This document shows positions 11,839 through 60,210 of a stretch of 64,000 nt of DNA, one piece after another; within the stretch, counting starts at the first letter, position 1; every line of letters starts with the position of its first letter. The notes under the pieces were generated by a model, which saw nothing but the letters and a program-made list of their open reading frames with translations, searched no databases and was not told where the DNA came from. The DNA lies in contig NZ_CZQA01000001.1 of NCBI RefSeq assembly GCF_001458735.1, positions 1,612,001 to 1,676,000 of the forward strand, in the 5' to 3' direction. This DNA is from Candidatus Nitrospira nitrosa. Its GTDB lineage: Bacteria > Nitrospirota > Nitrospiria > Nitrospirales > Nitrospiraceae. A program made the translations under genes and the position numbers.

Positions 11839-12612
11839 CTAGTGCGAGAACTTGCGCCTCGCCAGCCCGATGAGTCCGACTAGTCCGCTGCCGAACAGAT
11901 AGACTGCGGCCGGGACCGGCACTGGAGAGACCGTGATGGTGTTTCCGTCAAGCGCAAAATTCAGCGTGTCGGAGCGGAACGTGATGCGGTAGTCCGCATG
12001 GTCGGTAATCCCTCCGACGAATCCGGTGGGTGGGCTGAAGTTGTCGTTGGTGTTGATGCCGCCCGCTGCCTCAGCCGGATCCAATCGAAAGTCCGCCATC
12101 AGCAGGCGATAGTTGCCTGGCGCGGCGGTCACGCTGTAGGCCGGATCGCGTCGGAAGTGGATGGACCCGTCCGTCTCGCCTTCGGCTTGTGTCAGACTTG
12201 TCACCGTCACCGGGCTCGTCAACGCCGTGAGCCCGTTCTGGTAGACGGGTGTATTGTTGTTGATATCGTCCGCGCGCACCAAGGCGTCAGCCGCCACCAG
12301 GGGTGAACCGGTGTTCTGGTAGAAATAGGTGTCGGTATCCAGCCAAGTGAGCTCGCCGTCGCCGTTCAGATCTGACGAGAAATAGCCGGCTGTCGCGACG
12401 TTGCTCTGGGAGGCTTCGTAGGCGAGGACGTCGACCGTAAAATTTCCACCCGTTGGGATATCGATATTCCAGGTATCAAATGTGGTACCGAGCAGCGGTC
12501 CTGTCGTGAGCCGATTGAGGGTGCCCGTCACCTCAAGTGTATTCGCAGCACCAAGAGACGGGACGGAAAGGATCAGCGCCGTAAGCGCCAAGAAACACGA
12601 ATGTGTTCGCAT
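11839..12612 (-). CDS. VPLPA-CTERM sorting domain protein, unknown function
   Basis: A 257-residue secreted protein: signal peptide (MRTHSCFLALTALILSVPSL), mature part with DTWNIDIPTGGNFTVDVLAY, DLNGDGELTWLDTDTYFYQN (possibly an EF-hand-like Asp-rich calcium loop) and PGNYRLLMADFRLDPAEAAG, then VPVPAAVYLFGSGLVGLIGL and ARRKFSH. The DVLAYE and YRLLMADF blocks resemble secreted pre-peptidase-like domains. A GTG at 12618 opens the frame, but AGGAGG is 7 bases before ATG 12612 and would be too close to the GTG. The C-terminal 31 residues are the template recognised in the pseudogene at 2063-2275. Confidence 0.85.
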   Translation of the reverse strand: MRTHSCFLALTALILSVPSLGAANTLEVTGTLNRLTTGPLLGTTFDTWNIDIPTGGNFTVDVLAYEASQSNVATAGYFSSDLNGDGELTWLDTDTYFYQNTGSPLVAADALVRADDINNNTPVYQNGLTALTSPVTVTSLTQAEGETDGSIHFRRDPAYSVTAAPGNYRLLMADFRLDPAEAAGGINTNDNFSPPTGFVGGITDHADYRITFRSDTLNFALDGNTITVSPVPVPAAVYLFGSGLVGLIGLARRKFSH

Positions 12613-12700
12613 GAACACACCTCCTAGTTAGAGCTGACTATGGAAATACCTATGAAGACCAGAGTGCATGCCAGGGGGTTGTACCAGGGAGACCTTAGAG

Positions 12701-12740
12701 TATCTACTGATCCAATCCCATGCGTGCAACAGTTATGACA
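12701..12740 (-). promoter_or_regulatory. motif 1 promoter of 11839-12612
   Basis: Minus-strand TGTCATA, AC, TGTTGCA (12725-12740), 16 bp, then AGTAGATA (12701-12708). TTGCAC and TAGATA are 17 bp apart. The box edge is 113 bp from ATG 12612, which supports the choice of that start. Confidence 0.72.
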
Positions 12741-12890
12741 AAAAGATTTTCCCCGCGCCGTTGAGGCCAGTTCGTAGCCGTGGAGCGACTCCGCTCGCGC
12801 GATGACTCCTCCAATGTGGCCTAAGGTCGACCTTGATGAACCGCTGCCAGCGGCGGATCACCTCCTCTATGGTCGTAATCTCTCGATGTA

Positions 12891-15415: not shown

Positions 15416-15841
15416 TTACTGTTTTACCCCGCTGGCCGTTCCCAAGGCGCCGAACGTATTCTCCCAACGGCCGACAAAAGATTTCTTGTCCCGGTGCAAT
15501 TGGAGCTCGAACGTGGACTTGAACGGAAGCGGCGTGAAGTCCATGGTCAGTTCCGCCGAACAATCTTCCTTCACGGTCGCCTCTCCGGTAAATTTAAGGC
15601 CGGTCAAGGGATTCCCTTGATCGTTTTTCAAGGAAAAGTCGCAGGTGCCTTCGGTTCGTCCATTCTCGATTGAAAACTTGCACACCCCGGTGTGCGGATT
15701 CTTCAGAACTTCGTTTTGATAAGAGACCCAGTTTCCTCGCAGGTCACGTTTCTGGCATCGGCCTTCCTCTTCAAAGAACGCCTGGGCCTGGCTGCAGAGG
15801 ATGAGCGACACGATGGTGGTAGAGAACAAGAGACGCTTCAT
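15416..15841 (-). CDS. small secreted protein in the motif 1 regulon
   Basis: A 141-residue exported protein: signal peptide (MKRLLFSTTIVSLILCSQAQ) then FFEEEGRCQKRDLRGNWVSY, CKFSIENGRTEGTCDFSL, TGEATVKEDCSAELTMDF and KSFVGRWENTFGALGTASGV. Four to five cysteines and a repeated beta pattern (GNW..., GRW...) suggest a small disulphide-stabilised beta-barrel, perhaps lipocalin-like, but no family is recognised. There is no VPLPA tail. AAAGGAG 7 bases before ATG 15841 sets the start; the longer frame has none. A triple heptamer array lies 92 bp upstream. Confidence 0.75.
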   Translation of the reverse strand: MKRLLFSTTIVSLILCSQAQAFFEEEGRCQKRDLRGNWVSYQNEVLKNPHTGVCKFSIENGRTEGTCDFSLKNDQGNPLTGLKFTGEATVKEDCSAELTMDFTPLPFKSTFELQLHRDKKSFVGRWENTFGALGTASGVKQ

Positions 15842-15932
15842 ACCAACACTCCTTTGACAATGTGCTTCAAGGATGATTCTTGAAAGGCGAGCAAATGGTA
15901 GCAGGGTCAAGAAATGGGACACCATACGCGAC

Positions 15933-15957
15933 TGCTACAGATGCAACAGATGTGAAG
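15933..15957 (-). promoter_or_regulatory. triple motif 1 heptamer array
   Basis: The minus strand reads CTTCACA, TC, TGTTGCA, TC, TGTAGCA: three heptamers at strict 9-bp spacing rather than two. It sits 92 bp before ATG 15841. A matching -10 block at the usual distance is not clear. Confidence 0.55.
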
Positions 15958-16226
15958 GAAAATGACGCGCGTTGTTTGGTGTCGCCTATTAATAATACGT
16001 ACAAAACAAGTTGGCAGAGGCTTTAAGGAGTAGAAGTAAAGGTATCCGCATGGATACTGCTTGGACAGGCTGGTGTTGCGGCGGGCTCATGGTCCATGGA
16101 TGTCGTGAAACGTCGCACGTGAAGGGTGCTGCTGCCAAAGCCTGTGAAGCGTATCCTGTTCCAGACTGCAGATGTTCCAGCTTTCATCAGTTACGCTTCA
16201 CGATTCACGAACGACGAGTGACGCAA
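15958..16226. other. intergenic region
   Basis: Between the motif 1 array and the zinc-ribbon gene's stop. It is AT-richer near 15985-16005. I see no gene with a ribosome site and family support. Confidence 0.4.
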
Positions 16227-16481
16227 CTATCTCCATACCGGCCATTCCACATCGGGATCCTTGAACACGGGTTGGCGCGGCGTCGAATCTCGCCGACGGA
16301 CTCGGTGGTGCCTCGGGCGAGCCCTGTTTTGCACAATTACCGGGTCGATCAGCTCGCCGCAGGTCACGCAACGCCAGGCGCGAATATCATCGAGTGATGC
16401 ACCTTGGATGAGATCCAGCGGATCGAGTGGATCGATTGGATGCATGAGCCCATGACAGCGTCGACAGATTACGCGATCCAT
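16227..16481 (-). CDS. small zinc-ribbon protein
   Basis: An 84-residue protein, MDRVICRRCHGLMHPIDPLD, with a second knuckle WRCVTCGELIDPVIVQNR. Spacing and flanking residues match the protein at 1611-1841, defining a two-member family in this window. The strong AGGAGGTCTCAAC before ATG 16481 supports translation. Its start overlaps the last codons of the receiver-like gene 16469-16987 by 13 bp, so the two are likely co-translated, and a functional link between receiver fold and zinc ribbon is plausible. The C-terminus is Arg/His-rich and poorly structured. Function unknown. Confidence 0.7.
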   Translation of the reverse strand: MDRVICRRCHGLMHPIDPLDPLDLIQGASLDDIRAWRCVTCGELIDPVIVQNRARPRHHRVRRRDSTPRQPVFKDPDVEWPVWR

Positions 16482-16987
16482 GTTGAGACCTCCTGATGGG
16501 CCGTGCGAGGCTGCAAACGGTTCTCGATGGCTCGACCGGTAGTAGGGCTCGGCTCCGTGCCTGGTGAAAATGGTGAACCTACCGCGGCATTAAGCTCCGA
16601 CCGGAGCAATCGACCGATGTATGCGAACTCGAGTGGTTTGAGGGGAAGATGGAGATGACGAAGGAGACCGCTGTTTGGGATGTCCGTCTGATCTCCGTTG
16701 GTTTGGGGCCCCATCGTAATGACCGGCACATGAGGCGAAGCGGTCTTGATCGTGCGGAATAATCTCCGCAGGCTGAGTGTGGCAACCGGCTCCGAGAAAC
16801 TGAGTCCGATGCAGACGACTTGGGGACGGAGCTCACGGCATTCATTGATCGCCGTCTCCAACGACCGGACGAGTATCGCCTGGTAGGCGTGCGCCGCAAG
16901 CCAATCGGCGAGTTTGATGCCATACTCCAAATCGTGGTCTACGATTAGGACACAGGCTCGTTTCTTGTTCGGCAGAGTCTCCATCAT
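16469..16987 (-). CDS. receiver-like protein lacking the phospho-acceptor Asp
   Basis: A 172-residue single-domain protein with response-regulator receiver architecture: VLIVDHDLEYGIKLADWLAA (acidic pocket), a beta-3 strand VVCIGLSFSEP, VPVITMGPQ, and LPLKP carrying the conserved Lys. At the end of beta-3, where the phospho-accepting Asp belongs, the sequence is IGLSF, so Asp is missing. This makes it a pseudo-receiver that probably signals by binding, not phosphorylation. There is no output domain. AAGGAGAACCG precedes ATG 16987. It overlaps the zinc-ribbon gene downstream. No partner kinase is present nearby. Confidence 0.7.
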   Translation of the reverse strand: MMETLPNKKRACVLIVDHDLEYGIKLADWLAAHAYQAILVRSLETAINECRELRPQVVCIGLSFSEPVATLSLRRLFRTIKTASPHVPVITMGPQTNGDQTDIPNSGLLRHLHLPLKPLEFAYIGRLLRSELNAAVGSPFSPGTEPSPTTGRAIENRLQPRTAHQEVSTWIA

Positions 16988-17261: not shown

Positions 17262-18848
17262 TTACGCGGTGCCTCGCCGCCGAGCCAAGCCGATCAATGT
17301 GACTACTCCACTCCCGAACAACCACACAGCGCCAGGGATCGGTACGGCAGCGACCTCCATGCGCCAGGCCAGCGTGTAGTCCTGCGAGAAGTTGCCGGTC
17401 TCGCCCGCTGTCACTCGCAATTCATACCGGCGTCCCGCCAAGAGTCTCGTGTAGAGATTCTGGCTGTTGTCCAGGTCACTGGTGGATTCGGTGAGCAAGC
17501 TGTTGGCCGTGAGATCGAACAGCGAAAGGTTCAACCGATGTCGCGAGGTGGTGAGGGCGCTGTTGTTTGAGACGCCCACGTTCCAGGCCAGTGAGGAAAA
17601 TAATGTGACGTCGCTGCTCGTTGAGAATAGATACGAAGCTGTTCGAGCACTCCCGTTCAGCCCTCCGAAGGTCTCACCATAATCGAATCCGAAGCGGCCG
17701 ATGTCGCCGCCGTCCTGCTGTAAGCTTGGTTGCTCGCCGCCGGCGAGGATATGGTAACTGTTCAAGATGTTCACCTGCCCGGCTCCGTAGCGATCGTCCA
17801 ATCCGTTCGCCGTCTCATGCCCGGCGCTGCGATAGTCGGTGATATCGGCGGTGGTACCTTGGTTGGCGGTTTCTCGATCTGCACCCGCCATCAACAGTGC
17901 CTTGATGGTTTCGGACCGTTCGGCGTTGTAAATGGTTCCGACTCCGGAGATGGCCGTAGAGCCGTTGGAGAGGGATAGACCGGCTTCATGTCCGGTCTGC
18001 ACTAAGAGGGCGGCCGCGGACGAGACCACGGGTGTTGCGTTGCTTGTTATCGATTCCGGCGCCACGAGGAGTGGAGCGGTGCGGACGGCTCCATAGAGAC
18101 TGTCGCCGGAGACCGAGACGGTATTCCGTTGATGCCCGCCATCGGTGCGACCGACGGAGATCGCGTTGTAGGCGCTCCCTAGTAACGGGCTGTCGGCGGA
18201 ACTGTTGGCTAGGCCGACCACTTGAATGGATTCGTTTACGTGGACCTGACGATCGACTAAGCGCAGAATCTGCCCGGTGGCCGTCGGCGTATCTCCTGTG
18301 CCGACCCAGCTGTGGTTGGTGATGCGGGTTGGACCGGTCGTGGCCGTGCCGGACGGATTTGATAGGCCAGTGAACCAGCTATTGGCGTCATATCCGGCAA
18401 TCTGGCTGATGCCCGACGCGATGGAACTCGTAGTTCCATAGAACAATCGACCGACGACAGTCGCATGGCCTGAAAAACTGCCTGACGGATTACCGTTGAT
18501 CGCGGTAATGGTTTTCCCTGAAAATTCAGCATCGCTCGGGTTCGGCATGAAGATAGGAGCCGCGCCGCCGCTCGTGTCATTGATGGGGGCCTCAACCTGC
18601 GAAGCGCTTACGCCGGCTCCGGTCGGTGTCCCGGCGCCCAGTTCGGCTTGGAGGGCGCTGTACCCCACGTCAGTGAAATCGGCGGCCAGGGTGATAGAGG
18701 CCGCATAAAGGCAGAACCCTGAGACAATGGCGAAGAGCGTCGCGCCTGTGAGCGAGTGCGTCTGCTCAACCTGAAATCTCGTTCCATGGGACCGCATGCC
18801 TCGACTCCATGAGCAGGGCACGAATGAACTCCGGTGCTTCACAAGCAC
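17262..18848 (-). CDS. S8 (subtilisin)-like VPLPA-CTERM protein
   Basis: A 528-residue secreted protein. The subtilase landmarks are visible but eroded: SGHATVVGRLFYG (catalytic His region), ITNHSWVGTG (oxyanion Asn region) and ITSNATPVVSSAAALLVQTG, which aligns with GTSxAxPxVSGxAALL and keeps the nucleophile Ser but has Ile for Gly. The Asp region is not obvious, so activity is uncertain. The C-terminus carries a domain with ending YTLAWRMEVAAVPIPGAVWL, then FGSGVVTLIGLARRR, a VPxPx variant with Gly for Ala. GTG 18848 is chosen for the GAGGAGG six bases upstream; MRSHGTRF downstream is an alternative. A motif 1 box lies about 205 bp upstream. Confidence 0.8.
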   Translation of the reverse strand: MLVKHRSSFVPCSWSRGMRSHGTRFQVEQTHSLTGATLFAIVSGFCLYAASITLAADFTDVGYSALQAELGAGTPTGAGVSASQVEAPINDTSGGAAPIFMPNPSDAEFSGKTITAINGNPSGSFSGHATVVGRLFYGTTSSIASGISQIAGYDANSWFTGLSNPSGTATTGPTRITNHSWVGTGDTPTATGQILRLVDRQVHVNESIQVVGLANSSADSPLLGSAYNAISVGRTDGGHQRNTVSVSGDSLYGAVRTAPLLVAPESITSNATPVVSSAAALLVQTGHEAGLSLSNGSTAISGVGTIYNAERSETIKALLMAGADRETANQGTTADITDYRSAGHETANGLDDRYGAGQVNILNSYHILAGGEQPSLQQDGGDIGRFGFDYGETFGGLNGSARTASYLFSTSSDVTLFSSLAWNVGVSNNSALTTSRHRLNLSLFDLTANSLLTESTSDLDNSQNLYTRLLAGRRYELRVTAGETGNFSQDYTLAWRMEVAAVPIPGAVWLFGSGVVTLIGLARRRGTA

Positions 18849-19028: not shown

Positions 19029-19068
19029 TGTCCAGCAATGGATACCGATCTCTGCAACAGTTGTGACA
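19029..19068 (-). promoter_or_regulatory. motif 1 promoter of the S8-like gene
   Basis: Minus-strand TGTCACA, AC, TGTTGCA (19053-19068), 16 bp, then GCTGGACA (19029-19036), a weaker -10 block. It is divergent from the copy at 19201, 130 bp away. Confidence 0.55.
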
Positions 19069-19200
19069 GATATATATTACTATCAACAGGGTAGATACCT
19101 TTTAGGAACAGGGCCCGGCAACGGTTTCGGTCGATGCGGTGGAGCACTCAGACGGCTCACCTCCGAATGCGGCGTTGAAACCCGCAGCCGGAATAAGTTT

Positions 19201-19870: not shown

Positions 19871-20512
19871 CTACGATACGACCTTGTGCGCCCGCCGAAG
19901 AAGCAACCCGGCTAGCCCTGAACCAAACAGGAGGGCTGCTCCCGGCAAGGGGACTGCTGCCAGTTGCGCCGTACCGTTGAGCGTGAACTGTACGGTCAGA
20001 TTGCTCGGCAACCCTGGCACCCCACTCAGACCATGCGACCAGGTCAACCCGGTAAAGGCGTTCGTCAGGCTATTGAACGAGCCGACGGCATTGCCGCCGA
20101 TATTCGTCGTTACCCCACCGACAGGAATAAGTCCTCCGGTCAGTTTAGCAAGCAGCGAAGTGAGATCGGCCGTGATGGTCGAGCCGCTCGTATTGCCGCT
20201 CGGGAAGGGGTTCGGGCCGCTGGTAAACAGAGAAAAAGTATGGGTTCCGAGTAGGGGCACATTGATCGAAATGGGAGCAATGATGTCCGGTAAAGGCTGG
20301 TATTGTTCCATGACGATTTGTCCGCTCGTCGTAAAATTCCTGGCAGCAATCGTCGCGCTCCCGTTTTTCAGTGCGATCGATCCACTTGTAAAATCGAGTT
20401 CGCTGACTGTGAGCGCATCCGCCGACGTGGGGCAGATCCACAGAGCCGACAGCAATGCGACCGTGGCGGTCATCATCCCCGAACATACTTGACGCAGGGC
20501 TTGGTGCTTCAT
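19871..20512 (-). CDS. VPLPA-CTERM sorting domain protein, unknown function
   Basis: A 213-residue secreted protein: signal peptide from MKHQALRQVCSGMMTATVAL, a mature region starting LTVSELDFTSGSIALKNGSA, with TFSLFTSGPNPFPSG and LTWSHGLSGVPGLP, and tail VPLPGAALLFGSGLAGLLLR plus RAHK. VPLPG replaces VPLPA and the tail is short. The mature region is related to the protein at 29467-30066 (VTHLEITRGAVNYDG..., HALFTSGFSGAP..., a similar LSLDL repeat), so they may share a domain. ATG 20512 is preferred for its signal peptide; an in-frame ATG at 20596 with AGGA nine bases upstream would shorten the leader and cannot be excluded. Confidence 0.8.
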   Translation of the reverse strand: MKHQALRQVCSGMMTATVALLSALWICPTSADALTVSELDFTSGSIALKNGSATIAARNFTTSGQIVMEQYQPLPDIIAPISINVPLLGTHTFSLFTSGPNPFPSGNTSGSTITADLTSLLAKLTGGLIPVGGVTTNIGGNAVGSFNSLTNAFTGLTWSHGLSGVPGLPSNLTVQFTLNGTAQLAAVPLPGAALLFGSGLAGLLLRRAHKVVS

Positions 20513-20706
20513 ATTTATAGCGACCTTTCCGGCCAAGAGACGCTCTGGTTCCGTCTCGACCTTCGTGAGGGTTGAGATGTCGTGCTGTATGATCATCGAC
20601 AGTTATCCTGTGTTCGTACAATCTTTGTGAGAACGTGCCTCTCTGCAGAATTGTGTCACAAGGCACGCGTATCATGGTGGGTGAAGGTATCAGGATCATA
20701 TGGACG

Positions 20707-20746
20707 GGGCTACCGGTGGATACCTACGGCTGCAACACATGTGATA
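20707..20746 (-). promoter_or_regulatory. motif 1 promoter of 19871-20512
   Basis: Minus-strand TATCACA, TG, TGTTGCA (20731-20746), 16 bp, then GGTAGCCC (20707-20714). Spacing is exact. Confidence 0.65.
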
Positions 20747-21001
20747 GAAACTGCAGCGATAAGTTTGTTCTATTTGGCGTGTGCCCTATCGGCGTGGTGC
20801 GGTAAGCGCCGCACGCCCTACATCTTCATATAGACAACAAACCCAAATCACTTCTCCGAATCGAGTGCCCTCTGAATCATCACGACGACACCAGAAATTA
20901 GGGTGGGCAGTGAGGTTCTAGATCGCCCATCTTCCCCATGGTATTCACCTCGTTCACACCTGGGGGGCGCCTCAAGGATAGTTCGCTCCCGTCGACGATT
21001 C

Positions 21002-21040
21002 TGTCTCATCTGTTGCACTCGGTGCATAGGAAGGTAGAAG
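21002..21040 (+). promoter_or_regulatory. motif 1 promoter of the 21192-24562 operon
   Basis: Plus-strand TGTCTCA, TC, TGTTGCA (21002-21017), then 15 bp, then GGTAGAAG (21033-21040). The interval 20747-21001 between this and the previous promoter holds no recognisable gene. Confidence 0.62.
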
Positions 21041-21191
21041 ACCATCATAGCCTTTGATACACAAACGTATGGTGGAAACTAAAAACGTTCCTGTTCCAGT
21101 GAGGAAAATGGTTCAGGGTGATATCACTTCCAGAAATAATGTTGAGCGATCAAACGGACTCGTTCCGAGCAAGAGAAACAGAGGAGACATG

Positions 21192-21980
21192 ATGAATACG
21201 ACAATGAGAAAGCGCTCAGTTAAAACGTTGTTCGTTGTAGCCATGGCCGTCGGACTGTTGATGGGGGCCGGCACCGCTGGTGCCCACGTCGAATACCTTG
21301 ATCTTGGGGGGGGTGGCTCAGCGACCGACTCCATGAAGCGGTATGGTTGGATCGATGGCACGGATACGGATCTGGGCGATAGTCATCAGGTCTCGTTCTT
21401 CAAGTTCAGCGTGAGTCAGGCGTCATTGGTCAATATCACGATGACCGGCGCAAATGAACTCGGATTGAACCCAGCCTTTACTCTCTATGCGGGGCTCATG
21501 GGCGACTTGGCGCATGACGACACGGCGTTTGATCCGAATAATCCGGTAGACGGAAGTTTTAATAAAATCGCATCGCCGGTGGATAACGGCGTGACGACGG
21601 ATGCGCTTGGGCGCGTGTCTCCGTTCCGGGATACCGCCAACATTGATTTCGAAGGTCAGTTCAACGCTCTCGGGACCTGGAGTATGGCCAGCGACCCGTC
21701 TGACGGTGACGTCTGGCGCGTCATTGAATATCTCACGCACAAGAACGATACCGCCGGGAATGAGTCCTTGCTCGGCTATTTTCTCCCTGCAGGCGATTAC
21801 ACCATCGTCGCGTCAGGCGCTGCCTGTACCGATGCGGGTGCCGGTTGCACCGGTCCCTTTATCAATGGAACCGTGAATGTAAGTACCTCGCCTGTGCCGG
21901 TCCCGGCCGCGCTGTACTTGTTTGGGACGGGCTTGGCGGGGTTAGCCGGACTGGCTCGCCGGACGAAGACCGCCGTCTAA
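21192..21980 (+). CDS. VPLPA-CTERM protein of a three-gene family
   Basis: A 262-residue secreted protein. Signal peptide MNTTMRKRSVKTLFVVAMAV... ends near AGAHVEY. The mature part has GWIDGTDTDLGDSHQVSFFK, an NITMTGANELGLNPAFTLYA block, GDLAHDDTAFDPNNPVDGSF and LLGYFLPAGDYTIVASGA, then VPVPAALYLFGTGLAGLAGL plus ARR. The order (helical signal, calcium-rich-looking DxDxGD loop, FTLYxG, LPAGxYT) is shared with 22119-23036 and partly with 27909-28934. GAGGAG precedes two ATGs; the second (21192) has the better 5-base spacing. Head of a likely operon with the next two genes. Confidence 0.86.
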   Translation: MNTTMRKRSVKTLFVVAMAVGLLMGAGTAGAHVEYLDLGGGGSATDSMKRYGWIDGTDTDLGDSHQVSFFKFSVSQASLVNITMTGANELGLNPAFTLYAGLMGDLAHDDTAFDPNNPVDGSFNKIASPVDNGVTTDALGRVSPFRDTANIDFEGQFNALGTWSMASDPSDGDVWRVIEYLTHKNDTAGNESLLGYFLPAGDYTIVASGAACTDAGAGCTGPFINGTVNVSTSPVPVPAALYLFGTGLAGLAGLARRTKTAV

Positions 21981-27569: not shown

Positions 27570-27668
27570 GATACAACTGCACGCTCCTTTCTATATCCAC
27601 ATCTACCATGAATCAGATCTGAAAAGATGTCGCATTTTGGGGAACGGATGTGAGCTGCAAGTAGTTTG

Positions 27669-27708
27669 TGTCGCATCTGTTGCACGTGTCGGTACGCGTC
27701 TGTAGAGA
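27669..27708 (+). promoter_or_regulatory. motif 1 promoter of 27909-28934
   Basis: Plus-strand TGTCGCA, TC, TGTTGCA (27669-27684), 16 bp, then TGTAGAGA (27701-27708). This is the best copy of the tandem heptamer. The leader to ATG 27909 is about 200 nt; the rest of 27570-27908 shows no gene. Confidence 0.72.
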
Positions 27709-27908
27709 GCCAGGATACGATTTGATACATCGGTTGCGACAATCTGCTGGAGGAAGACGGGTGCAAGCCGGTTCAAGGAAGAGGAGGAATACGCAGGTCG
27801 TGGGGCCGATAATGGTTCGCGGCCGGAGGAGGATGGTCCGTCTCGTCGGCTTTTACTTCAAGAGCAATCCAGCAACGCTCTCAACCATAAACAGTAAGGA
27901 GATTGTGC

Positions 27909-28934
27909 ATGCGTAATAAATCGCTCATAGTCGGGTCGCTCTCCGCCATGGCCCTCACATTGGCGGCCGGTGTCGCGTCCGCGCACGTCGGGTACGGTCT
28001 GTCGCTCTATGATCAGGCGACCAACACGGTCGGTGTTGCAGGATCCAATGGGTTCAATCCTACGGCCAGCAGCAATGTGGGCTGGATTTCTGGGATGAGC
28101 AACAACGGCGTTAATCGCACTGGAGCCATCGATACGTTGGCGGATACCCATAATAACCGGTTCCGCTTCTTTACCCTCGACCAAAACTCTACGGTCAGCA
28201 TCACCGTGACCGGAACGGCGAATACCAACGGGGCCTCGGTCCTGAATCCCGGATTTTCCATTTTCAGCGGCCTGGTACCGGCAGCCTCCCACGACGGCGC
28301 GGGGGATACCAACGGACTAACTCCTGCCCAGATCGCCACAATGCAAACGCCCGCACATAACGGCTATTTGTCGACCCAACCGGCTTTCGCAACGTGGTCA
28401 CCCTTCTTTGACGCCACGGATGAAATCACGGCTCAGGGTGGCGGAGCGGTCGATGGTGGTGGAGCCAATTGGGGCGTGTACCGTTCGGATAGCAACTTCA
28501 CCATGGGCAACAACAATGGTGAGGTGAGTACGGCAACTTTCACGGGCAATGCCGTCGGCGATGGTCATAATGGCGACACTCAGGACAATTCTGTCACGTG
28601 GACCGGCAGCCTCGGACCAGGCACCTACTCACTGGTCATCGGTGGAGCCAACACAACTGACCTGCAATCACTCTTCAACCTCGTGACTCAAGGGACGGGA
28701 ACTCCGGCCGCGGGTTTCACCGCCTGCGATCCCAACAATCCGGTGTCCTGCAGCGGGACGGCATATCCCACGGCCTATACCACGGAACGTGCTGCTCGGA
28801 ACATGCAAATCAGCATGAACGTGAATGGGGTGGACTTGCAGCCAGTGCCTGTACCGGCGGCGGTCTATCTGTTCGGCAGCGGCCTCATCGGCTTGGCCGG
28901 CATGGCTCGTCGGAAGATGACGGCAAAGGGTTAG
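27909..28934 (+). CDS. VPLPA-CTERM sorting domain protein
   Basis: A 341-residue secreted protein with signal peptide (MRNKSLIVGSLSAMALTLAA then GVASAHVGYG), blocks VGWISGMSNNGVNRTGAIDT, NRFRFFTLDQNSTVSITVTG, LNPGFSIFSGLVPAASHDGA and LGPGTYSLVIGGANTTD. These correspond to the GW-G-D, FTLxG and PGxY blocks of 21192-21980 and 22119-23036, so it is a more distant member of that family. Tail VPVPAAVYLFGSGLIGLAGM plus ARRKM. AAGGAG seven bases before ATG 27909 fixes the start; the in-frame TTG at 27903 is too close. Confidence 0.86.
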   Translation: MRNKSLIVGSLSAMALTLAAGVASAHVGYGLSLYDQATNTVGVAGSNGFNPTASSNVGWISGMSNNGVNRTGAIDTLADTHNNRFRFFTLDQNSTVSITVTGTANTNGASVLNPGFSIFSGLVPAASHDGAGDTNGLTPAQIATMQTPAHNGYLSTQPAFATWSPFFDATDEITAQGGGAVDGGGANWGVYRSDSNFTMGNNNGEVSTATFTGNAVGDGHNGDTQDNSVTWTGSLGPGTYSLVIGGANTTDLQSLFNLVTQGTGTPAAGFTACDPNNPVSCSGTAYPTAYTTERAARNMQISMNVNGVDLQPVPVPAAVYLFGSGLIGLAGMARRKMTAKG

Positions 28935-42811: not shown

Positions 42812-42878
42812 TTTTAACGATCAGTTAACACAAACTTGAGATTGACGTGGCCCACGGCCGATCGGCGAACGGTACACT
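42812..42878 (+). promoter_or_regulatory. motif 2 promoter of the exosortase unit
   Basis: TTTTAAC then, 11 bp on, GTTAACACAAACTTGAG (42824-42840); 32 bp later TACACT (42873-42878). The spacer shares CGTGGCCCA with the unit 1 promoter. A start near 42885 excludes the long frame from 42847 and supports ATG 42907. Confidence 0.7.
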
Positions 42879-42906
42879 TCAACGTCGTCATCACTGTGGA
42901 GCTGTC

Positions 42907-44544
42907 ATGAATACTCAACCTACGGTTCTCGGGCAATCGCTGCCGTCCCCCTCCGAACCGCCTTTGATTCACTCGTCCATGCGGAACAACGCATCTTTGC
43001 CCTGGATGATTCTTGCCGTGATCGTGACGGTCCTCGGCTATCTCTATGCCGATAGTCTGCGATTCTTGGGAGAGTCATGGTTGGAAGACAACAACAGCCA
43101 TGGGCCGTTCATTCCGTTGATCGTGCTGTACATGATTTGGCTGCGCTGGCCGACACTCCATGTCATTGAGCATCGGGGTTCGTGGTGGGGCCTCTCCATT
43201 GTAGGTATCGGGCTGTGCATATATGCGGTCGGTCAGTTTGCCGCCATGCACGCAGTCGTGCATCTCTCGCTCTGGCTGGTGATCGTCGGATTGCTGGGCT
43301 CTGCGATCGGTCTGGCCGGCCTTCGTCGGCTCACGTTTCCGTTGTTGTACTTGCTTGCAGCCGTTCCGCTTCCGGTCTTTCTGCAATATGAGCTATCGAG
43401 CAAACTTCAACTGTGGTCGTCGACCCTGGGCGTCGGGTTTCTTCATGCGATCGGGGTGACAGCCTATCGGGAAGGGAACGTGATCGATCTTGGGCCGACG
43501 CAACTTCAAGTCGTCGAGGCTTGCAGCGGTCTGCGGTATCTCTTTCCGCTCATGGCGCTGACGTTACTCATGGCCTATCTCTACCGCGAATCATTTTGGA
43601 AGCGGGCCGTGCTCGTCTTGTCCAGCATACCGATCTCGATTCTGCTGAACGGCTTTCGAATCGGTGTCATCGGTATCCTGGTGGGATTCTACGGGCAAGC
43701 GGCAGCCGAAGGGTTTACCCATTTTTTTGAAGGGTGGATTTTCTTTGTGGCGAGTCTCGTCTTGCTGTGTGGTGAAATGTGGATCTTTGCGAGAGTCGGT
43801 TCGGCCGGACCTCGCCGTTCGTTCGCCGATTTGATCGGTCTGCCGGCTGCCGGCGGTGCCATGCCACCCGCTCTCACTCAACCGGCTGCGGCCATTTCTT
43901 TTCCACCCCTGTTCGTCGCGAGCGGGTTGCTTGCTGTGGCGATCGTCGCCGCTCCCACCATCAATCCCGAGGAGTTTCCTCCTCCACCAAGTCGCCACCA
44001 GTTGGTCGATTTTCCATTGCGGCTTGGAGGGTGGACGGGAGTCAATGCTCCGATGGAGCGACAATATCTCGATGCGTTGGCGTTGGACGATTATGTGATG
44101 GCGGATTACACGGCCGCCGATCGCCGCCCGGTCAATGTGTACGTAGCGTACTATCTCTCTCCGAAGAAAGGTCGTTCTTCGCATTCACCGAAACAATGCA
44201 TTCCGGGGGGCGGATGGGAAATCACGTCCTTCGAACCGACACGGATGGAGCATGTGTCGGAGATCAAACCGGGCCAAGAGATCAATCGCGTCGTCGTGCA
44301 GAAAGATGGGTATAAGCAGATCGTCTACTACTGGTTCAAGCAGCGCGATCGATGGATTACGAGCGAATATCTCGTGAAGTTTTTCCTCTTTTGGGATTCC
44401 TTGACCAGGCATCGCGCCGATGGAGCACTCGTGCGGTTGTCCTCGTCGGTACATCCCGGAGAAAACGAAGCCATCGTCGATGAACGGCTCCAGACGATGG
44501 TCGGTTTGGTCACACCGTTGTTGGGTCGATACGTTCCCGATTGA
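42907..44544 (+). CDS. xrtD: exosortase D, VPLPA-CTERM-specific, with C-terminal EpsI domain
   Basis: A 545-residue inner-membrane protein. The exosortase part has about eight helices and the transpeptidase-like triad: Cys206 in VVEACSGLRYLF, Arg251 in LLNGFRIGVIG and His272 in GFTHFFEGW. The C-terminal half is an EpsI domain (LRLGGWTGVNAPMERQYLDA, YYLSPKKGRSSHSPKQCIPG, KPGQEINRVVVQKDGYKQIV, YYWFKQRDRW). Fusion of the two defines exosortase D, the enzyme family matched with VPLPA tails, and 15 such tails are in this window. It should cut the sorting helix and pass the substrate to the outer surface or an acceptor. GGAG five bases before ATG 42907. First gene of a unit running to 54562. Confidence 0.92.
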   Translation: MNTQPTVLGQSLPSPSEPPLIHSSMRNNASLPWMILAVIVTVLGYLYADSLRFLGESWLEDNNSHGPFIPLIVLYMIWLRWPTLHVIEHRGSWWGLSIVGIGLCIYAVGQFAAMHAVVHLSLWLVIVGLLGSAIGLAGLRRLTFPLLYLLAAVPLPVFLQYELSSKLQLWSSTLGVGFLHAIGVTAYREGNVIDLGPTQLQVVEACSGLRYLFPLMALTLLMAYLYRESFWKRAVLVLSSIPISILLNGFRIGVIGILVGFYGQAAAEGFTHFFEGWIFFVASLVLLCGEMWIFARVGSAGPRRSFADLIGLPAAGGAMPPALTQPAAAISFPPLFVASGLLAVAIVAAPTINPEEFPPPPSRHQLVDFPLRLGGWTGVNAPMERQYLDALALDDYVMADYTAADRRPVNVYVAYYLSPKKGRSSHSPKQCIPGGGWEITSFEPTRMEHVSEIKPGQEINRVVVQKDGYKQIVYYWFKQRDRWITSEYLVKFFLFWDSLTRHRADGALVRLSSSVHPGENEAIVDERLQTMVGLVTPLLGRYVPD

Positions 44545-53137: not shown

Positions 53138-54562
53138 ATGTACGAAACACACTATCACTTGAAGACGAAGCCCTTCACGTTGTTGCCGGATCCGGAATTC
53201 CTCTATTTAGGGGCCAAGCACAAGATGGCGCTCAGCCTTTTAGAATATGGGTTGACGAACGGGTCGGCCTTGATCGTCATCGCCGGAGATCCCGGTACGG
53301 GAAAAACCACATTGTTGAACCGGTTGCTGGATGAGACCCGCCATCCCTGGACCGTCGGTGTGTTGTCGAACACGCATGTCGGCATCGGTGGGCTGCTGCC
53401 GTGGATTGCCGCCTCCTTCGATCTGTCGATCGCCGGGAAGAGTGACGTGGAGGCGTTTCATGAGTTCGCCAAATTTCTCGAACGTGAACGAACTGCCGGA
53501 CGGCGCGTGCTGTTGATGGTCGACGAAGCGCAAAACATCGGAACTACGATGTTGGAAGAGCTTCGGTTGCTCTCGAATCTCAATGACGGACGTCGTCGAT
53601 CGCTACAGATTCTCTTGTCGGGACAATTGGGTTTGCGGGATCTGTTGAAGGGGCCGGGCATGGTCCAATTCGCCCAACGGATCGGTGTCGAGTACACGCT
53701 GGAGGCACTCTCGGAAGAGGAAACGCGTGGGTATATGAGGCATCGGTTGGATGTCGCCGGTAGACGCACGCCGCTGTTTACGACGTTGGCAAGCCGTTCG
53801 GTGTTTCGCTTGACCGGGGGTACTCCGCGTCTGATCAATCAGCTCTGTGATCATGCCCTGGTGTATGGCTTTGCCGCCCAGGTGGAGGTCATTACGTCTG
53901 GCATTGTGCTGGAGACTGCGGCAGCTCGTGACCGTCATGGTGTATTCCCGTTCAAGGTCTCGCCGGAATCCGTCGAATGGTCTCAACAAGCGATTGGAGA
54001 AGAACGGGAAGAAGTGAAGTGCTTTGTCACAGGGAATAGCCCATCAAACACGCCGGTCCAGCCGTCTGATCAGGACGGCGAACAAGATCTGCCGGTTCTG
54101 TATCGAGAAGCCATGGCACTCCAGGAAGCAGGCAATTTCAAACAAGCCATCGTACTGTTCAATCGCGTGACCGGTGACGAGTCCTGGGGGACGAAGGCCC
54201 TGATGAAAAAAGGATTGTGCTTGCGCGCAATGGGACAATTCGATGAGGCCCTCAGCACATTCCACGCTGCCATCGATCGCAAGGCAGCCTCATCAAAAGA
54301 TCACCTCGCATTACAATACCTATTGGGACGCACATTCGAGGATGCCGGCAAATCGGCTGAGGCAGCCGAGCGTTATAGGCGAATCTATCAGGAAGTGGGA
54401 TCGTATCGTGACATCGAGGTACGGTTGGACCGACTCAGCGGACTTCCCCTAAACGATCAACTCACAAATTCTGTTTCATCGTCCTGGTGGGGAGGCCTGT
54501 TCCGGCCATCTGACCGAGTACCTCGCGACGAAAGAACGCACAAATTCCCCACGTTCAAATAA
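53138..54562 (+). CDS. ExeA-like AAA ATPase of exosortase systems with TPR-like tail
   Basis: A 474-residue protein: MYETHYHLKTKPFTLLPDPE then FLYLGAKHKMALSLLEYGL is the usual start of the PEP-CTERM locus ATPase (TIGR03015-like), Walker A GDPGTGKTT (residues 50-58), Walker B VLLMVDEAQ (124-132), then LLSNLNDGRRRSLQILLSGQ and VEYTLEALSEEETRGYMRHR. After about residue 300 two to three TPR-like helices follow (YREAMALQEAGNFKQAIVLF, KKGLCLRAMGQFDEALSTFH), an extension not in all members. Probably couples ATP hydrolysis to EPS assembly or export. It begins 5 bp after the CpsD-like gene and closes the unit. Confidence 0.85.
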   Translation: MYETHYHLKTKPFTLLPDPEFLYLGAKHKMALSLLEYGLTNGSALIVIAGDPGTGKTTLLNRLLDETRHPWTVGVLSNTHVGIGGLLPWIAASFDLSIAGKSDVEAFHEFAKFLERERTAGRRVLLMVDEAQNIGTTMLEELRLLSNLNDGRRRSLQILLSGQLGLRDLLKGPGMVQFAQRIGVEYTLEALSEEETRGYMRHRLDVAGRRTPLFTTLASRSVFRLTGGTPRLINQLCDHALVYGFAAQVEVITSGIVLETAAARDRHGVFPFKVSPESVEWSQQAIGEEREEVKCFVTGNSPSNTPVQPSDQDGEQDLPVLYREAMALQEAGNFKQAIVLFNRVTGDESWGTKALMKKGLCLRAMGQFDEALSTFHAAIDRKAASSKDHLALQYLLGRTFEDAGKSAEAAERYRRIYQEVGSYRDIEVRLDRLSGLPLNDQLTNSVSSSWWGGLFRPSDRVPRDERTHKFPTFK

Positions 54563-54707
54563 TTCGGCCTCGAGGTTTCTGTAAATTGATCAAACAAGAG
54601 TAAGTACCTGACCAGCACTCGTACAACTGGCTTCTCTGTCGAGAAGCTTCTCCCTAGCCACTTGGGCCAACTGTCTCGGTCATTTCAGTCCCTTGACCTG
54701 TATTTCT

Positions 54708-54746
54708 TGTCACATCTGTAGCATCTGTTGCCACAGTCGGTAGACC
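54708..54746 (+). promoter_or_regulatory. motif 1 promoter with triple heptamer
   Basis: TGTCACA, TC, TGTAGCA, TC, TGTTGCC (54708-54732), then GGTAGACC (54739-54746), 15 bp from the second heptamer. TAGCAT and TAGACC are 16 bp apart. ATG 54850 is 127 bp past the second heptamer. The rest of 54563-54849 shows no gene. Confidence 0.7.
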
Positions 54747-54849
54747 ACGTTTGTCCTGGGACGGTATTGTCTGCCCTATGGTCACGATGCTCTGGGTATC
54801 TAACCATACGGAGGGTCATTTTACTTCACCTCTATCAAAGGAGTGTTCC

Positions 54850-55407
54850 ATGAAACATACGTACAACCTCAAGACAGCGATGTCCGGCCTTTTTGTCGCC
54901 GGCGTCCTCTCGATGGCGGTGACGGCACAGGCCGTCACGCTTGATGCTGGTGTCTTTGCGGTGGGCAACGGCGATGCGGCGAATCCGGTCGTGATTAATG
55001 TCCCAGATCCAGGTTTGTCCGGAGGGAGCGGAATTTTCTTGGACACCATTAATTTTGATCTGGGTTCATTCACGCATTTCAATATGACGTCCGTAGCCAA
55101 TAGCATCACTGCTTTTGGCTCCACCATTTTTGAGAACAATGGTGATTCTGAGCTTCCCGTAGTGCCTGGCGGGTATCAAGGTGCAGCTGACACGTTCAAC
55201 GCACTAGCACTGGCCGACCTTGGGCTTTCGCGTGATTATCACCTGCATCCTGCAGGCCTTGCTCCTGCTGGAGCAGGCTACACGTTGACCTTGTGGGGCT
55301 CGAATGGTGGCCCGGCTGTTCCACTCCCTGCTGCAGCCTGGCTGTTCGGCAGCGGCGTGATCGGATTGGCGGGCTTGGCCCGTCGCAAGATGGCGGCGGC
55401 AGTCTGA
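54850..55407 (+). CDS. VPLPA-CTERM sorting domain protein, unknown function
   Basis: A 185-residue secreted protein: signal peptide (MKHTYNLKTAMSGLFVAGVL then SMAVTAQAVTL), a small beta-rich mature part (GVFAVGNGDAANPVVINVPD, FLDTINFDLGSFTHFNMTSV, ADLGLSRDYHLHPAGLAPAG, YTLTLWGSNGGP) and tail VPLPAAAWLFGSGVIGLAGL plus ARRKM. The FDLGSFTHFN and YTLTLWG strands suggest a jelly-roll-like small domain. AAAGGAG six bases before ATG 54850. It stands just after the EPS locus yet keeps the motif 1 promoter, so it belongs to the substrate regulon. Confidence 0.86.
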   Translation: MKHTYNLKTAMSGLFVAGVLSMAVTAQAVTLDAGVFAVGNGDAANPVVINVPDPGLSGGSGIFLDTINFDLGSFTHFNMTSVANSITAFGSTIFENNGDSELPVVPGGYQGAADTFNALALADLGLSRDYHLHPAGLAPAGAGYTLTLWGSNGGPAVPLPAAAWLFGSGVIGLAGLARRKMAAAV

Positions 55408-55539
55408 TCTCGAGACTGGTTCACGGAAGGACTCCACGCGGGTTCTTCTACGGCATCGGCGGCTACCTTGGCACATGCTGAGGTAGCCGTCAGATGGTGG
55501 GGCCGATCCGTTGAAATCGAATTGCTTGATGGAATTACC

Positions 55540-57048
55540 ATGAAACACAGAATGAACACTCGGTCGCGATTGGTCTCACGGTCGTTCGTGGAATGTTTCA
55601 GTTTACTGGCCCTGCTGGTGTTCTGGTCAGTAGGGATGAGCCAGGAAGTGAGCGCTGCGGTACTGTACCCCATCGGTGATCGACCGATCGCTGTCTCGGC
55701 GCCGGTCAATGCCGATAGGTGGGACATCGACGACCAGGTCGACGCGGAAATGGTCGATCGGCAACCCGTGCTCTCATTGACGACCTCGCCGGCTGATTTG
55801 GTGCGCGCTTTGGCGATTTCCTATCATGAACTCACGGCGGTCGGTTGGCGCTCGATATTCGAGGTCGATCACGAGGCTTGGGGATTTACCTTCGCCTTGA
55901 CGCTACAAGGACGACCGGGGCATGGGCCGCTTCTGCTGTCAATTGGTCCGGTCAAGCTGGCCAGCAGTTCGCCGATCATGCCTCTTGCATCTTCTCCCTC
56001 GTCTGTTCTGCTGTTTTTGCCCGGGTTAGTCGGCCTACTCGGAGTCCTGTTGCGTGAACAACATCGGCTGACAGCGTCCGGTTCCGAAACGGAATCGCTG
56101 AGAGAACCGCCGCCGTTTGGAAGTACTCCCGGCTTGCTCATCCTGTCGGCGGATCCCACATTCTCTCAGGGCATTCAAGCGCAGGTGAGCCAAGCGGGGT
56201 ATCCGTCTCGAATCGCCGCTGACATCAATGACACCCTCACGATCAGTGAACATGTCGTGCCGGCGCTTCTCCTCGTTGATCGCCGCGTTCCAGATTGGGA
56301 CATGCTTCGTACCAGTCCGGTGCTGAAGAGCGTCCCCATGATCAGCTTGGCACCGGCAGGAAGTTTGTGCACGGAGGAGCAATGGATGTCGGACTTGGAG
56401 CGTGGAGCAGACAGCATCTACGATTTTTGTGATGGAGGCCGCCTGTTTCTTGCCAAGCTGAGAGCCTCCCTTCGGCGAGCCGGGTGTGCGGTCACCAATC
56501 GCGCCGTGTACCAGGTGGGGGCTCTGCACTTGGATGCGGATCACCATGAGGTGACGATTGCCGGGCAGCAGCTTCCGCTTTCCTCAAAGCCGTTTGCCAT
56601 TCTCAAAACGCTGATGGAGGCGCCCTCCAGAGTATTCAGTCGAAGTGAATTGGTCGATCGCGTGTGGGGGCCGCAATTTGCCATTGGGCAACACACGCTG
56701 GATGTGCATGTCCATGCGCTTCGCCGGCAACTGGATCTAGTCCCACAACGGCGTTGTCAGCTCATCACGATCAAGGGAGTTGGGTTCAAGCTCAAGGCGG
56801 AGAATGCGATGCCGGTCTCCTGTGCCGTGGAAGTCGAGTGTTCGATTCACCCGGGTGATCGCAACACATCTGAAGAATTAGCGGCAGCCTCCGGCTTACG
56901 AGCGAAACAAGCCAGCGTCGATCCGCTCTGTCAGTTTCCCTCACCTCACGTTCCCGCCCTTAAGCGGGTCACACGCCGGCGTCCTAACCGGATGCCACGA
57001 AGGCCAACAGCAGTGGGTCATTTTGGCCATGCGGCACTCGCTAGTTAG
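55540..57048 (+). CDS. membrane-anchored OmpR-type regulator with periplasmic domain
   Basis: A 502-residue protein of unusual architecture: signal-anchor (SLLALLVFWSVGMS, about residues 21-36), a ~110-residue periplasmic domain (YPIGDRPIAVSAPVNADRWD ... WGFTFALTLQGRPGHGPLLL), a second helix SSVLLFLPGLVGLLGVLL (about 155-172) that resembles a sorting-tail helix, a receiver-like domain (LLILSADPTFSQGIQAQVSQ, Asp about 247 in LLLVDRRVP, but no conserved Lys-Pro) and an OmpR winged helix (VTIAGQQLPLSSKPFAILKT, RSELVDRVWG, HTLDVHVHALRRQLD, IKGVGFKLK). It would sense an envelope signal and bind DNA directly. Start ATG 55540 has only a weak site. It follows 54850-55407 by 132 bp. Confidence 0.75.
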   Translation: MKHRMNTRSRLVSRSFVECFSLLALLVFWSVGMSQEVSAAVLYPIGDRPIAVSAPVNADRWDIDDQVDAEMVDRQPVLSLTTSPADLVRALAISYHELTAVGWRSIFEVDHEAWGFTFALTLQGRPGHGPLLLSIGPVKLASSSPIMPLASSPSSVLLFLPGLVGLLGVLLREQHRLTASGSETESLREPPPFGSTPGLLILSADPTFSQGIQAQVSQAGYPSRIAADINDTLTISEHVVPALLLVDRRVPDWDMLRTSPVLKSVPMISLAPAGSLCTEEQWMSDLERGADSIYDFCDGGRLFLAKLRASLRRAGCAVTNRAVYQVGALHLDADHHEVTIAGQQLPLSSKPFAILKTLMEAPSRVFSRSELVDRVWGPQFAIGQHTLDVHVHALRRQLDLVPQRRCQLITIKGVGFKLKAENAMPVSCAVEVECSIHPGDRNTSEELAAASGLRAKQASVDPLCQFPSPHVPALKRVTRRRPNRMPRRPTAVGHFGHAALAS

Positions 57049-57225
57049 ATTGTGTCCTCATGTGCTCCTTCGTGATGACTAGAATTGGGTAGAAGAGAAA
57101 AGAATGACTCCTTTCCGGGGTGGGCCGAGGTGCGGAAGGTCAATCGAACGCTCCTCATGTCCAGCCTGGACTGGGGGGGGCGGTGTGCCGCTCGGGGGAT
57201 GGTGAGAAAAATAAGAGGGAATTCA

Positions 57226-57531
57226 ATGGATAAGCTACGAATTGGGTTGGTGTGTATGGGGATCGGTATCGGCTGTGGTAGTTGGGCTCAGGCTATGACG
57301 GATCGAACGGTCATGCTGATGCTTGGGGGACAGTATTGCGATCTCTATCTCGGAAATGTCGAATCTGCTCTGAAACAAATTGCCGGTGTCAAAGCAGTCG
57401 ATCTCAAGAGCATGAAAAGGCATGCGATTGTGACGCTGGAGGGTGATAAGTCGACGACGAAGCAGCTCGCCGACGCCGTGAATGGAGTGAAGGGAGAAGG
57501 CTGGCATTGTAGTGCTCAAGTCATGAAGTAA
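57226..57531 (+). CDS. secreted HMA-fold-like protein without CxxC
   Basis: A 101-residue protein with signal peptide (MDKLRIGLVCMGIGIGCGSW) and a domain VMLMLGGQYCDLYLGNVESA then LKQIAGVKAVDLKSMKRHAI then VTLEGDKSTTKQLADAVNGV. The beta-alpha-beta-beta-alpha-beta order and the GVKAVDLK...AIVTLEG pattern match heavy-metal-associated (HMA) domains, but the metal motif CxxC is replaced by YCDLYLG with one Cys; another Cys is near the end (GWHCSAQ). Probably binds a different ligand or needs both cysteines. AGAGGGAATTCA precedes ATG 57226. Function unknown. Confidence 0.62.
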   Translation: MDKLRIGLVCMGIGIGCGSWAQAMTDRTVMLMLGGQYCDLYLGNVESALKQIAGVKAVDLKSMKRHAIVTLEGDKSTTKQLADAVNGVKGEGWHCSAQVMK

Positions 57532-59490: not shown

Positions 59491-60210
59491 TTATCTCTTC
59501 TTGAGATACGAGCGAGCCAGCGCATCCTTGATCGTGTTTCGGATGTGATTCCGCCCCGCTTCGATGTTCTCCCGCATCGCCTCGCGTGCACCTGCCGCGT
59601 CCTTCGTCAGAATCCGATTCAGAATCTCCAGATGTTGACGGCATGTTCTTTCGGCGCGTTCCGGGTTTTCAAAGTCCAGCAACCGAAACAGCGTCAAGCG
59701 CTCATTGATGGTTCGAAGACTCCGAAGCAGGAACGTGTTCCCGAGGACGCGGGCGAGGGTGTCGTGAAAGAGGGTATCGAGGATCGCAAATTCTTCTGGT
59801 TTCTTCGACGGTTCCTTCAGGAGGTCAGCCCACGTGTGCTGAAGGTCATCAAGATCAGCCTGGTGTTGTGAGAGCATATCTTGAGCGGCCAAACGCTCGA
59901 CGGTATAGAGTTCCAGTGCCTGGCGCACTTCGTAGAGTTCTTCAATTTCCTCGGTCGTGTACTGCTTAACGACATAGCTTCGGTTGGGCAGTTTTCTGAT
60001 GAAGCCATATGAGGTCAAGACGCGTAGCGCCTCCCGAATCGGACTGCGGCTCATCCCAAACCGCTTGCACAATCCATCTTCAGTCAACCGATGTTCCGGC
60101 GGGTAGTGCCAGTGGACGATCTCTTCCTTCAGTGTCGCCACGACTGCCGAGCTGAGGTTTGATGAGGCAGGTTTCTCCTGTGTGTCCTTCCGGCGGACCA
60201 TCTTCTTCAT
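59491..60210 (-). CDS. GntR-family (FadR/FCD) transcription regulator
   Basis: A 239-residue regulator: winged HTH (ATLKEEIVHWHYPPEHRLTE then DGLCKRFGMSRSPIREALRV then LTSYGFIRKLPNRSYVVKQY) and an FCD effector domain (EELYEVRQALELYTVERLAA, DTLFHDTLARVLGNTFL, CRQHLEILNRIL, NIEAGRNHI), whose spaced His residues normally bind a metal and a small carboxylate. Ligand and targets unknown. ATG 60210; an upstream GTATAC palindrome may be its own operator. It lies apart from any catabolic genes, so no target pathway is indicated by context. Confidence 0.85.
   Translation of the reverse strand: MKKMVRRKDTQEKPASSNLSSAVVATLKEEIVHWHYPPEHRLTEDGLCKRFGMSRSPIREALRVLTSYGFIRKLPNRSYVVKQYTTEEIEELYEVRQALELYTVERLAAQDMLSQHQADLDDLQHTWADLLKEPSKKPEEFAILDTLFHDTLARVLGNTFLLRSLRTINERLTLFRLLDFENPERAERTCRQHLEILNRILTKDAAGAREAMRENIEAGRNHIRNTIKDALARSYLKKR

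Follow-up and report, generated by a model that had tools for sequence, protein, structure and literature searches.

Transcription regulators that span the membrane are common, and response-regulator domains occur in 9.2% of the transmembrane transcription regulators (TTRs) that have been catalogued (PMC10269533). PEP-CTERM sorting signals have been described as lying near the C-terminus 'virtually without exception', and rare longer tails have been called possibly non-functional (PMC1569441). Dedicated regulation of sorted-protein genes via an upstream motif has been described for the PrsK/PrsR system of Proteobacteria (PMC1569441). In the literature that we searched, which was mostly free of subscription, there was no report of an exosortase (PEP or VPLPA) sorting signal inside a regulator. 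We also know of no regulator that is tied to sorting itself.

We analyzed a 64,000-nucleotide stretch of the Candidatus Nitrospira nitrosa genome (the window), which encodes a membrane-anchored regulator, here called REG, next to the gene of a sorted protein. The class to which REG belongs, the TTRs, is already known. A previous sequence-only reading of this DNA had regarded a receiver within a membrane regulator as unusual. This applies to the order of the domains but is, given the catalogued proportion cited above (PMC10269533), not new in itself.

Architecture and distribution of the regulator

The genes and protein segments under discussion are the following:

42847-44544, + strand: XrtD, the VPLPA-CTERM-specific exosortase (TIGR04152, 526.5 bits, cut-off 400)
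54850-55407, + strand: substrate A, a VPLPA-CTERM protein and the partner gene of REG (TIGR03370, 28.8 bits, cut-off 25.35)
55540-57048, + strand: REG, membrane-anchored OmpR/PhoB-type regulator, 502 aa, single open reading frame
55540-55659, + strand: predicted cleavable signal peptide, residues 1-40, ending EVSA/A with the slash marking the cut (conserved AxA-type site in the alignment; hydropathy)
55660-55971, + strand: variable periplasmic segment, about residues 41-144 (alignment; low confidence in AF2)
55972-56073, + strand: degenerate VPLPA-like tail PIMPLASSPSSVLLFLPGLVGLLGVLLREQ, about residues 145-178, with the transmembrane (TM) helix at 155-178 (conserved residues, pattern test)
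56134-56478, + strand: degenerate receiver, residues 199-313, D247 retained (TIGR02154, AF2, Foldseek, residue comparison)
56563-56793, + strand: winged helix-turn-helix (wHTH), Trans_reg_C, residues 342-418 (Pfam, E=2e-19)
56803-57045, + strand: C-terminal extension of about 80 residues with the basic cluster RRRPNRMPRR, predicted unordered (alignment, AF2)

From the N- to the C-terminus, REG consists of a signal peptide, a variable periplasmic part, a single TM helix, a degenerate receiver and an intact OmpR-type wHTH. The open reading frame and the domain searches bear out the odd order that had been proposed for a single polypeptide, with the membrane part first, then the receiver and finally the DNA-binding domain at the cytoplasmic C-terminus. 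Hydropathy reaches maxima only at residues 16 and 153. REG starts with basic residues followed by a hydrophobic stretch that closes with an AxA-type site, and this site is kept across the REG alignment (VSA/A, GNA/A, ADA/A, SHA/A and others). Because of this conserved site, the hydrophobic N-terminal helix, which had been read as a signal anchor, looks like a cleavable signal peptide. As positive charges precede the first helix and follow the second, the regulator part would face the cytoplasm.

Residues 199-418, comprising receiver and wHTH, match PhoB-type response regulators (TIGR02154, E=8e-30). AF2 models the receiver (about 199-313) and the wHTH (about 322-420) with confidence, places helices at 7-32 and 155-178 and leaves residues 30-163 and 422-502 unordered. 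The best Foldseek matches for the two domains are full-length OmpR/PhoB regulators, e.g. RpaA, VanR, MtrA and PrrA. A Pfam scan of 16 REG homologues detected Trans_reg_C and, weakly in 3 of the 16, Response_reg. Within the receiver the phospho-acceptor Asp (D247) is invariant, only one residue of the acidic pair is left and Thr/Ser as well as Lys are gone. In addition, there is a deletion of about 6 residues relative to five paralogues from the same genome. The TIGR02154 and Trans_reg_C matches and the residue losses confirm the earlier description as a degenerate receiver joined to an OmpR winged helix. Owing to the lost residues and the deletion, control of REG probably needs no phosphorylation.

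The first search for homologues used the N-terminal part as query, and later ones used alignments covering TM helix and receiver. We found the single-chain TM form in about 27 Nitrospira-family genomes, two of the relatives being Nitrospira MAGs. In a search of 396 genomes of the phylum, nothing beyond receiver-type matches scoring at most about 46 bits appeared outside the family. The distribution also bears on a trivial explanation, raised in the sequence-only reading itself, namely that a frameshift or a sequencing or assembly artefact joined a sorted-protein gene to a regulator gene. Soluble relatives do exist as separate proteins, but the same architecture in a single open reading frame recurs in independent assemblies at 29-62% identity. 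These homologues refute such an artefact, to which we assign next to no probability. XrtD is present in 105 of 175 family genomes and is far more widespread than the regulator, the latter accordingly being an addition to some XrtD systems only.

The sorting-tail helix and its origin

The second helix of REG had been suspected to resemble the helix of a VPLPA sorting tail, and both a residue-pattern scan and intact motifs in relatives substantiate this likeness. P145, P148, P153, F159 and G165 are invariant across 16 REG homologues, the remaining N-terminal half being variable. In the window's branch of regulators the helix reads SPIMPLASSPSSVLLFLPGLVGLLGVLLRE, and none of the VPLPA/PEP-CTERM models (TIGR03370, TIGR02595) matches the tail of the window REG. 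In about a dozen relatives (L106-L113 and L133-L136), the internal VPLPA-CTERM motif is intact (e.g. TEQVPLPGAVVLFGSGLCGIIGMVVRRQ). The internal tail is EQVPLPGAVVLFGSGLCGIIGMVVRRQ in L106, VPIPAAVVLFGSGLCGIIGIVVRRE in L107 and L108, VPLPAGIILFGSGLCGIVGIVIRRQ in L109, and VPVPAAVMLFGSG and VPAPAALILFGSG in L110/L111; those of L112, L113 and L133-L136 are similar to the tails of L106-L109. The relatives' internal tails fall below the threshold of TIGR03370, and the tail segment of L111 exceeds the TIGR02595 cut-off (17.8 vs 16 bits). The tail pattern P[SAG][SAG]xx[LF]Fx5Gxx[GSA]x2-4[RK], composed after both groups had been seen, gave 71 C-terminal and 31 internal matches over 708,000 translated residues, and 31 of the 31 internal ones belong to the REG family. 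Since this holds for every internal match, the likeness to VPLPA sorting tails, as judged by the pattern, is not a chance one.

The previous suggestion that a sorted protein became fused to a regulator is borne out in relatives by their identity to substrates. Residues 1-213 of L110/L111 (genomes G133/G139), from the signal peptide through the tail, are 78% identical to L038:4813-5487 (E=2e-116 and 1e-119), a free-standing VPLPA-CTERM protein that is located between substrate A and the regulator in its own genome. Residues 133-328 of L109 are 69% identical to the substrate L111:13988-14602 (E=8e-76). In a tree of receiver plus wHTH, L109 and L110/L111 fall into different groups, and the regulator cores of L110 and L038 diverge more than their substrate parts. 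Thus, fusion of a substrate to a regulator apparently happened at least twice, and the substrate part in G133/G139 points to a second, later event. An exosortase was not found in G133 (94% complete) despite its intact-motif fusion and several VPLPA-CTERM proteins, reflecting either a missing contig or a real loss.

The TM form is nested in a clade of regulators that are soluble and degenerate and mostly stand at the ends of xrtD/EPS loci in other Nitrospira. Four label changes on the tree fit one gain plus three losses, and the topology is consistent with a single gain from soluble regulators followed by few losses. We lean towards an explanation in which REG arose when an XrtD substrate was joined to an OmpR-type regulator that was soluble and degenerate. 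Among soluble proteins, REG is closest to a degenerate OmpR-type regulator of about 235 aa that closes xrtD/EPS loci (L098-L105, L124, L128); in L098 an OprO/P-like porin and a protein of phosphate-binding type are encoded beside it. One of the apparent losses, L121:9539-10492, still lies next to substrate A and encodes a soluble regulator beginning MKHRIGVVSPD, as though a single in-frame deletion had taken out the signal peptide, the periplasmic part and the helix.

The plainest rival to a sorting-coupled reading is an anchor without a sensing role. REG would then be a constitutive tethered regulator whose tail is a mere leftover of an old fusion, with sensing by the variable periplasmic part or none and with no role for XrtD. 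The cut site of the window REG is degenerate and unmatched by the VPLPA/PEP-CTERM models, the periplasmic part varies, and L121, L122 and L123 dropped the membrane part entirely and yet are retained, all of which a mere anchor would explain. It would explain less well why the five invariant residues are the best-conserved part of the N-terminal half, why the intact motif is retained in a whole clade and why a second, later fusion is indicated in G133/G139, where the substrate part is closer to the free-standing substrate of L038 (78% identity) than the cores are to each other on the tree. We regard a constitutive anchor as conceivable but doubtful.

The partner gene and a candidate upstream site

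A VPLPA-CTERM gene lies directly 5' of the regulator gene at almost every locus. Among the 175 family genomes, substrate A is found in 26, the regulator in 28 (including G089, which has the soluble form only) and both in 25 (table 25/3/1/146; p=6.6e-26, Fisher, for related genomes). Both genes adjoin in 24 of the 25 genomes having both. G069 has its regulator elsewhere, with a replaced N-terminus, and G125 has kept substrate A with no regulator found. G048, G054 and G089 possess a regulator of a different branch without substrate A; in G048 and G054 it adjoins a TonB-dependent receptor, in G054 also a CbiX-like gene. The regulator lies about 11 kb from xrtD in only a few genomes. An xrtD/EPS neighbourhood is not general, and the conserved place of the regulator is just downstream of the VPLPA-CTERM substrate gene. 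Of the location described earlier, the side facing the substrate gene is therefore conserved and the side facing the EPS locus is not. The homologue search, which had been proposed for the vicinity of xrtD, recovered the domain order in about 27 genomes of the family, with xrtD nearby in few.

Between substrate A and REG, no terminator was detected by a simple scan, and a 14-nt inverted repeat located there (55460-55489) is not matched by any repeat when the intergenic regions of relatives are aligned. Positions 54500-57300 gave no Rfam match to a known RNA element up to E 0.1. A second locus type occurs in L036, L037, L042, L114, L122, L123 and L137. It comprises a VPLPA-like protein, often with a YLMASGL/YLMGSGL tail, a TonB-dependent receptor, a branch of the regulator with or without the TM helix, a CbiX-like protein and a small membrane protein. 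The window also encodes an exosortase-locus ATPase (TIGR03015-like) with a C-terminal TPR region (53138-54562) and, within a cluster of VPLPA genes, a small stand-alone receiver-like protein of 171 aa (16469-16987, - strand). The latter had no NCBIfam match at E 1e-6, and L144 encodes a homologue in a cluster of this kind.

Footprinting of the regions upstream of substrate A across relatives yielded TTGTCACATCTGTAGCATC, which was generalised to the search pattern TTTYYGTCACATCTGTWGCA with at most 2 mismatches. This tandem-repeat-like site has 11 matches in the 4.4-Mb genome, and 11 of 11 lie inside the window (9382-54723), compared with an expectation of 0.003 per window from 300 shuffled patterns. 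Nine of the 11 copies are located 27-218 bp upstream of a VPLPA-CTERM gene and oriented toward it (12% for random positions), and the copies of relatives are mostly placed likewise. The repeats of OmpR-type sites are usually spaced by 10-11 bp; the 9-bp spacing of the motif is shorter.

9382-9401, - strand: exact copy, 116 bp upstream of VPLPA gene 8540-9265 (pattern scan)
10554-10573, - strand: exact copy, 114 bp upstream of VPLPA gene 9726-10439 (pattern scan)
11565-11584, - strand: copy with 1 mismatch, upstream of VPLPA gene 10739-11452 (pattern scan)
12725-12744, - strand: copy with 2 mismatches, upstream of VPLPA gene 11839-12618 (pattern scan)
19053-19072, - strand: copy with 2 mismatches, upstream of VPLPA gene 17262-18848 (pattern scan)
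20731-20750, - strand: copy with 2 mismatches, upstream of VPLPA gene 19871-20596 (pattern scan)
20998-21017, + strand: copy with 2 mismatches, upstream of VPLPA gene 21054-21980 (pattern scan)
27665-27684, + strand: copy with 2 mismatches, upstream of VPLPA gene 27903-28934 (pattern scan)
54704-54723, + strand: copy of TTTYYGTCACATCTGTWGCA with 1 mismatch, upstream of substrate A (footprinting)

A further copy (15942-15961, - strand) stands directly upstream of a non-VPLPA gene (15416-15925, - strand, 169 aa), as it does for the homologue in L040, and this gene may belong to the same regulon as the motif-bearing VPLPA genes. CGGTA follows the motif within 33 bp at 14 of 36 sites, compared with a background of 2.7%. 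The window genome (G000) has three XrtD genes, on contigs C1, C10 and C12, the C12 copy being divergent; regulator and motif matches occur only at the C1 locus.

Across the 175 genomes, regulator and motif occur together (p=2.5e-16), with 126 of 144 matches in genomes that have the regulator, and a reversed-pattern control gave about 7 matches in all 175. When the comparison was confined to the 36 genomes with at least 3 VPLPA proteins, the motif was present in 23 of the 24 that have the A-regulator pair and in 3 of the 12 that lack it (p=2e-5); as the genomes are related, these Fisher p-values overstate independence. It might be that a different regulator or a sigma factor reads the motif and that the regulator accompanies motif and substrate A only through joint inheritance of the cluster; the relatedness of the genomes would favour this. 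So would the motif without regulator in G118, G126 and G141 (the latter two on 8-kb contigs of incomplete genomes) and the regulator without a motif match in G095. Co-inheritance as one cluster fits less well with several genomes in which motif copies lie on contigs other than that of the pair, and with VPLPA-rich genomes that lack both the A-type pair and the motif (G089, as well as G048 and G054 with 17 and 10 VPLPA genes, no substrate A and zero matches). Moreover, in G125, where only the regulator is missing, the motif site before substrate A is eroded. The GntR regulator at 59491-60210 was rejected as reader of the motif because its distribution across genomes fits poorly. We therefore consider another reader rather unlikely and treat TTTYYGTCACATCTGTWGCA as a site that may define a regulon of surface proteins in Nitrospira. 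REG had been put forward before as a candidate regulator of a motif (motif 1 or motif 2) preceding sorted-protein genes. The co-occurrence speaks for such a role; the motif described here was found independently and may differ from both.

Proposed mechanism and comparison with known systems

With somewhat more confidence than doubt, we propose that REG is a membrane-tethered, probably phosphorylation-independent regulator of VPLPA-CTERM genes, built on the scaffold of a sorting substrate, whose helix would couple its activity to sorting. The domain order, the relatives' homology to substrates in their N-terminal half, the partner gene and the shared distribution with the motif were observed; how REG sits in the membrane, which DNA it binds, in which direction it regulates and whether XrtD takes part are inferred. 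After removal of the signal peptide, REG would be a single-pass type I membrane protein with a periplasmic N-terminal part, anchored by the helix derived from a VPLPA-CTERM sorting tail, with receiver and OmpR-type wHTH facing the cytoplasm. It would bind the candidate site GTCACATCTGTWGCA and control VPLPA-CTERM genes, including the substrate A-regulator pair itself. The helix may sense the sorting state via XrtD or via a crowd of unsorted substrates, and REG would in this way probably link protein sorting to the control of sorted-protein genes. Several observations weigh against this reading: no VPLPA/PEP-CTERM model matches the helix of the window REG, G133 has fusion and substrates with no exosortase found, motif and regulator occur apart in G118, G126, G141 and G095, and the 9-bp repeat spacing is short for an OmpR-type site.

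In relatives with an intact motif, XrtD might cut or hold the VPLPA site as in a substrate, thereby freeing or silencing the cytoplasmic part. What remained after a cut would be the helix with the regulator attached, which could then diffuse in the membrane or be attacked by a second protease. In the window's branch the VP..P spacing is broken up, suggesting a mimic that cannot be cleaved, and the helix with its degenerate cut site might serve as a decoy, staying uncut while competing with true substrates. More tentatively, the exosortase may serve as a signalling protease: XrtD would cut or occupy the internal VPLPA site, the outcome would set the level of its own substrates, and the uncleavable helix of the window would be a decoy sensing free XrtD. 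We rate this as possible at best; if true, a Gram-negative sorting system would be connected with gene expression by a feedback loop.

A natural substrate-regulator fusion, its partner gene and a candidate operator make feedback from sorting to expression directly testable, and the internal sorting signal could be used to assay XrtD, on which little biochemistry has been done. The motif is a first candidate regulon motif for the surface proteins of Nitrospira, which are relevant to nitrification and flocs. REG is also a candidate case of exosortase regulation outside the Proteobacterial PrsK/PrsR system.

How does REG compare with known systems? Like TTRs, including hybrid TTRs (PMC10269533), it combines a DNA-binding domain (Trans_reg_C, 342-418) and at least one TM region (helix 155-178) in one chain, and it shares the receiver with 9.2% of them. 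Unlike the HTCS-like hybrid TTRs, it contains no histidine-kinase domain according to the Pfam scan, and its membrane helix is an exosortase sorting tail, with the N-terminal half being a sorting substrate in some members. With ToxR/CadC, REG has an OmpR-type wHTH, one TM helix and a periplasmic part in common. However, those proteins carry an N-terminal cytoplasmic wHTH, whereas that of REG is C-terminal (342-418 of 502), behind a receiver, and a signal peptide occupies the N-terminus. The order and fold of receiver and C-terminal winged helix are those of OmpR/PhoB response regulators, but REG is membrane-anchored, and of the complete receiver set (acidic pair, Asp, Thr/Ser, Lys) only Asp247 and one acidic residue remain. 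VPLPA-CTERM/PEP-CTERM substrates (TIGR03370, TIGR02595) resemble REG in signal peptide, variable middle and tripartite tail, with full-length homology in L109-L111, and the genome encodes the cognate XrtD (42847-44544 in the window, three XrtD in the genome). Their tail lies at the extreme C-terminus, while that of REG is internal and followed by 330 residues, of which about 300 are predicted to be cytoplasmic. Finally, PrsR is a soluble sigma-54 NtrC-type regulator working with a membrane kinase (PMC1569441), whereas REG is one OmpR-type membrane protein.
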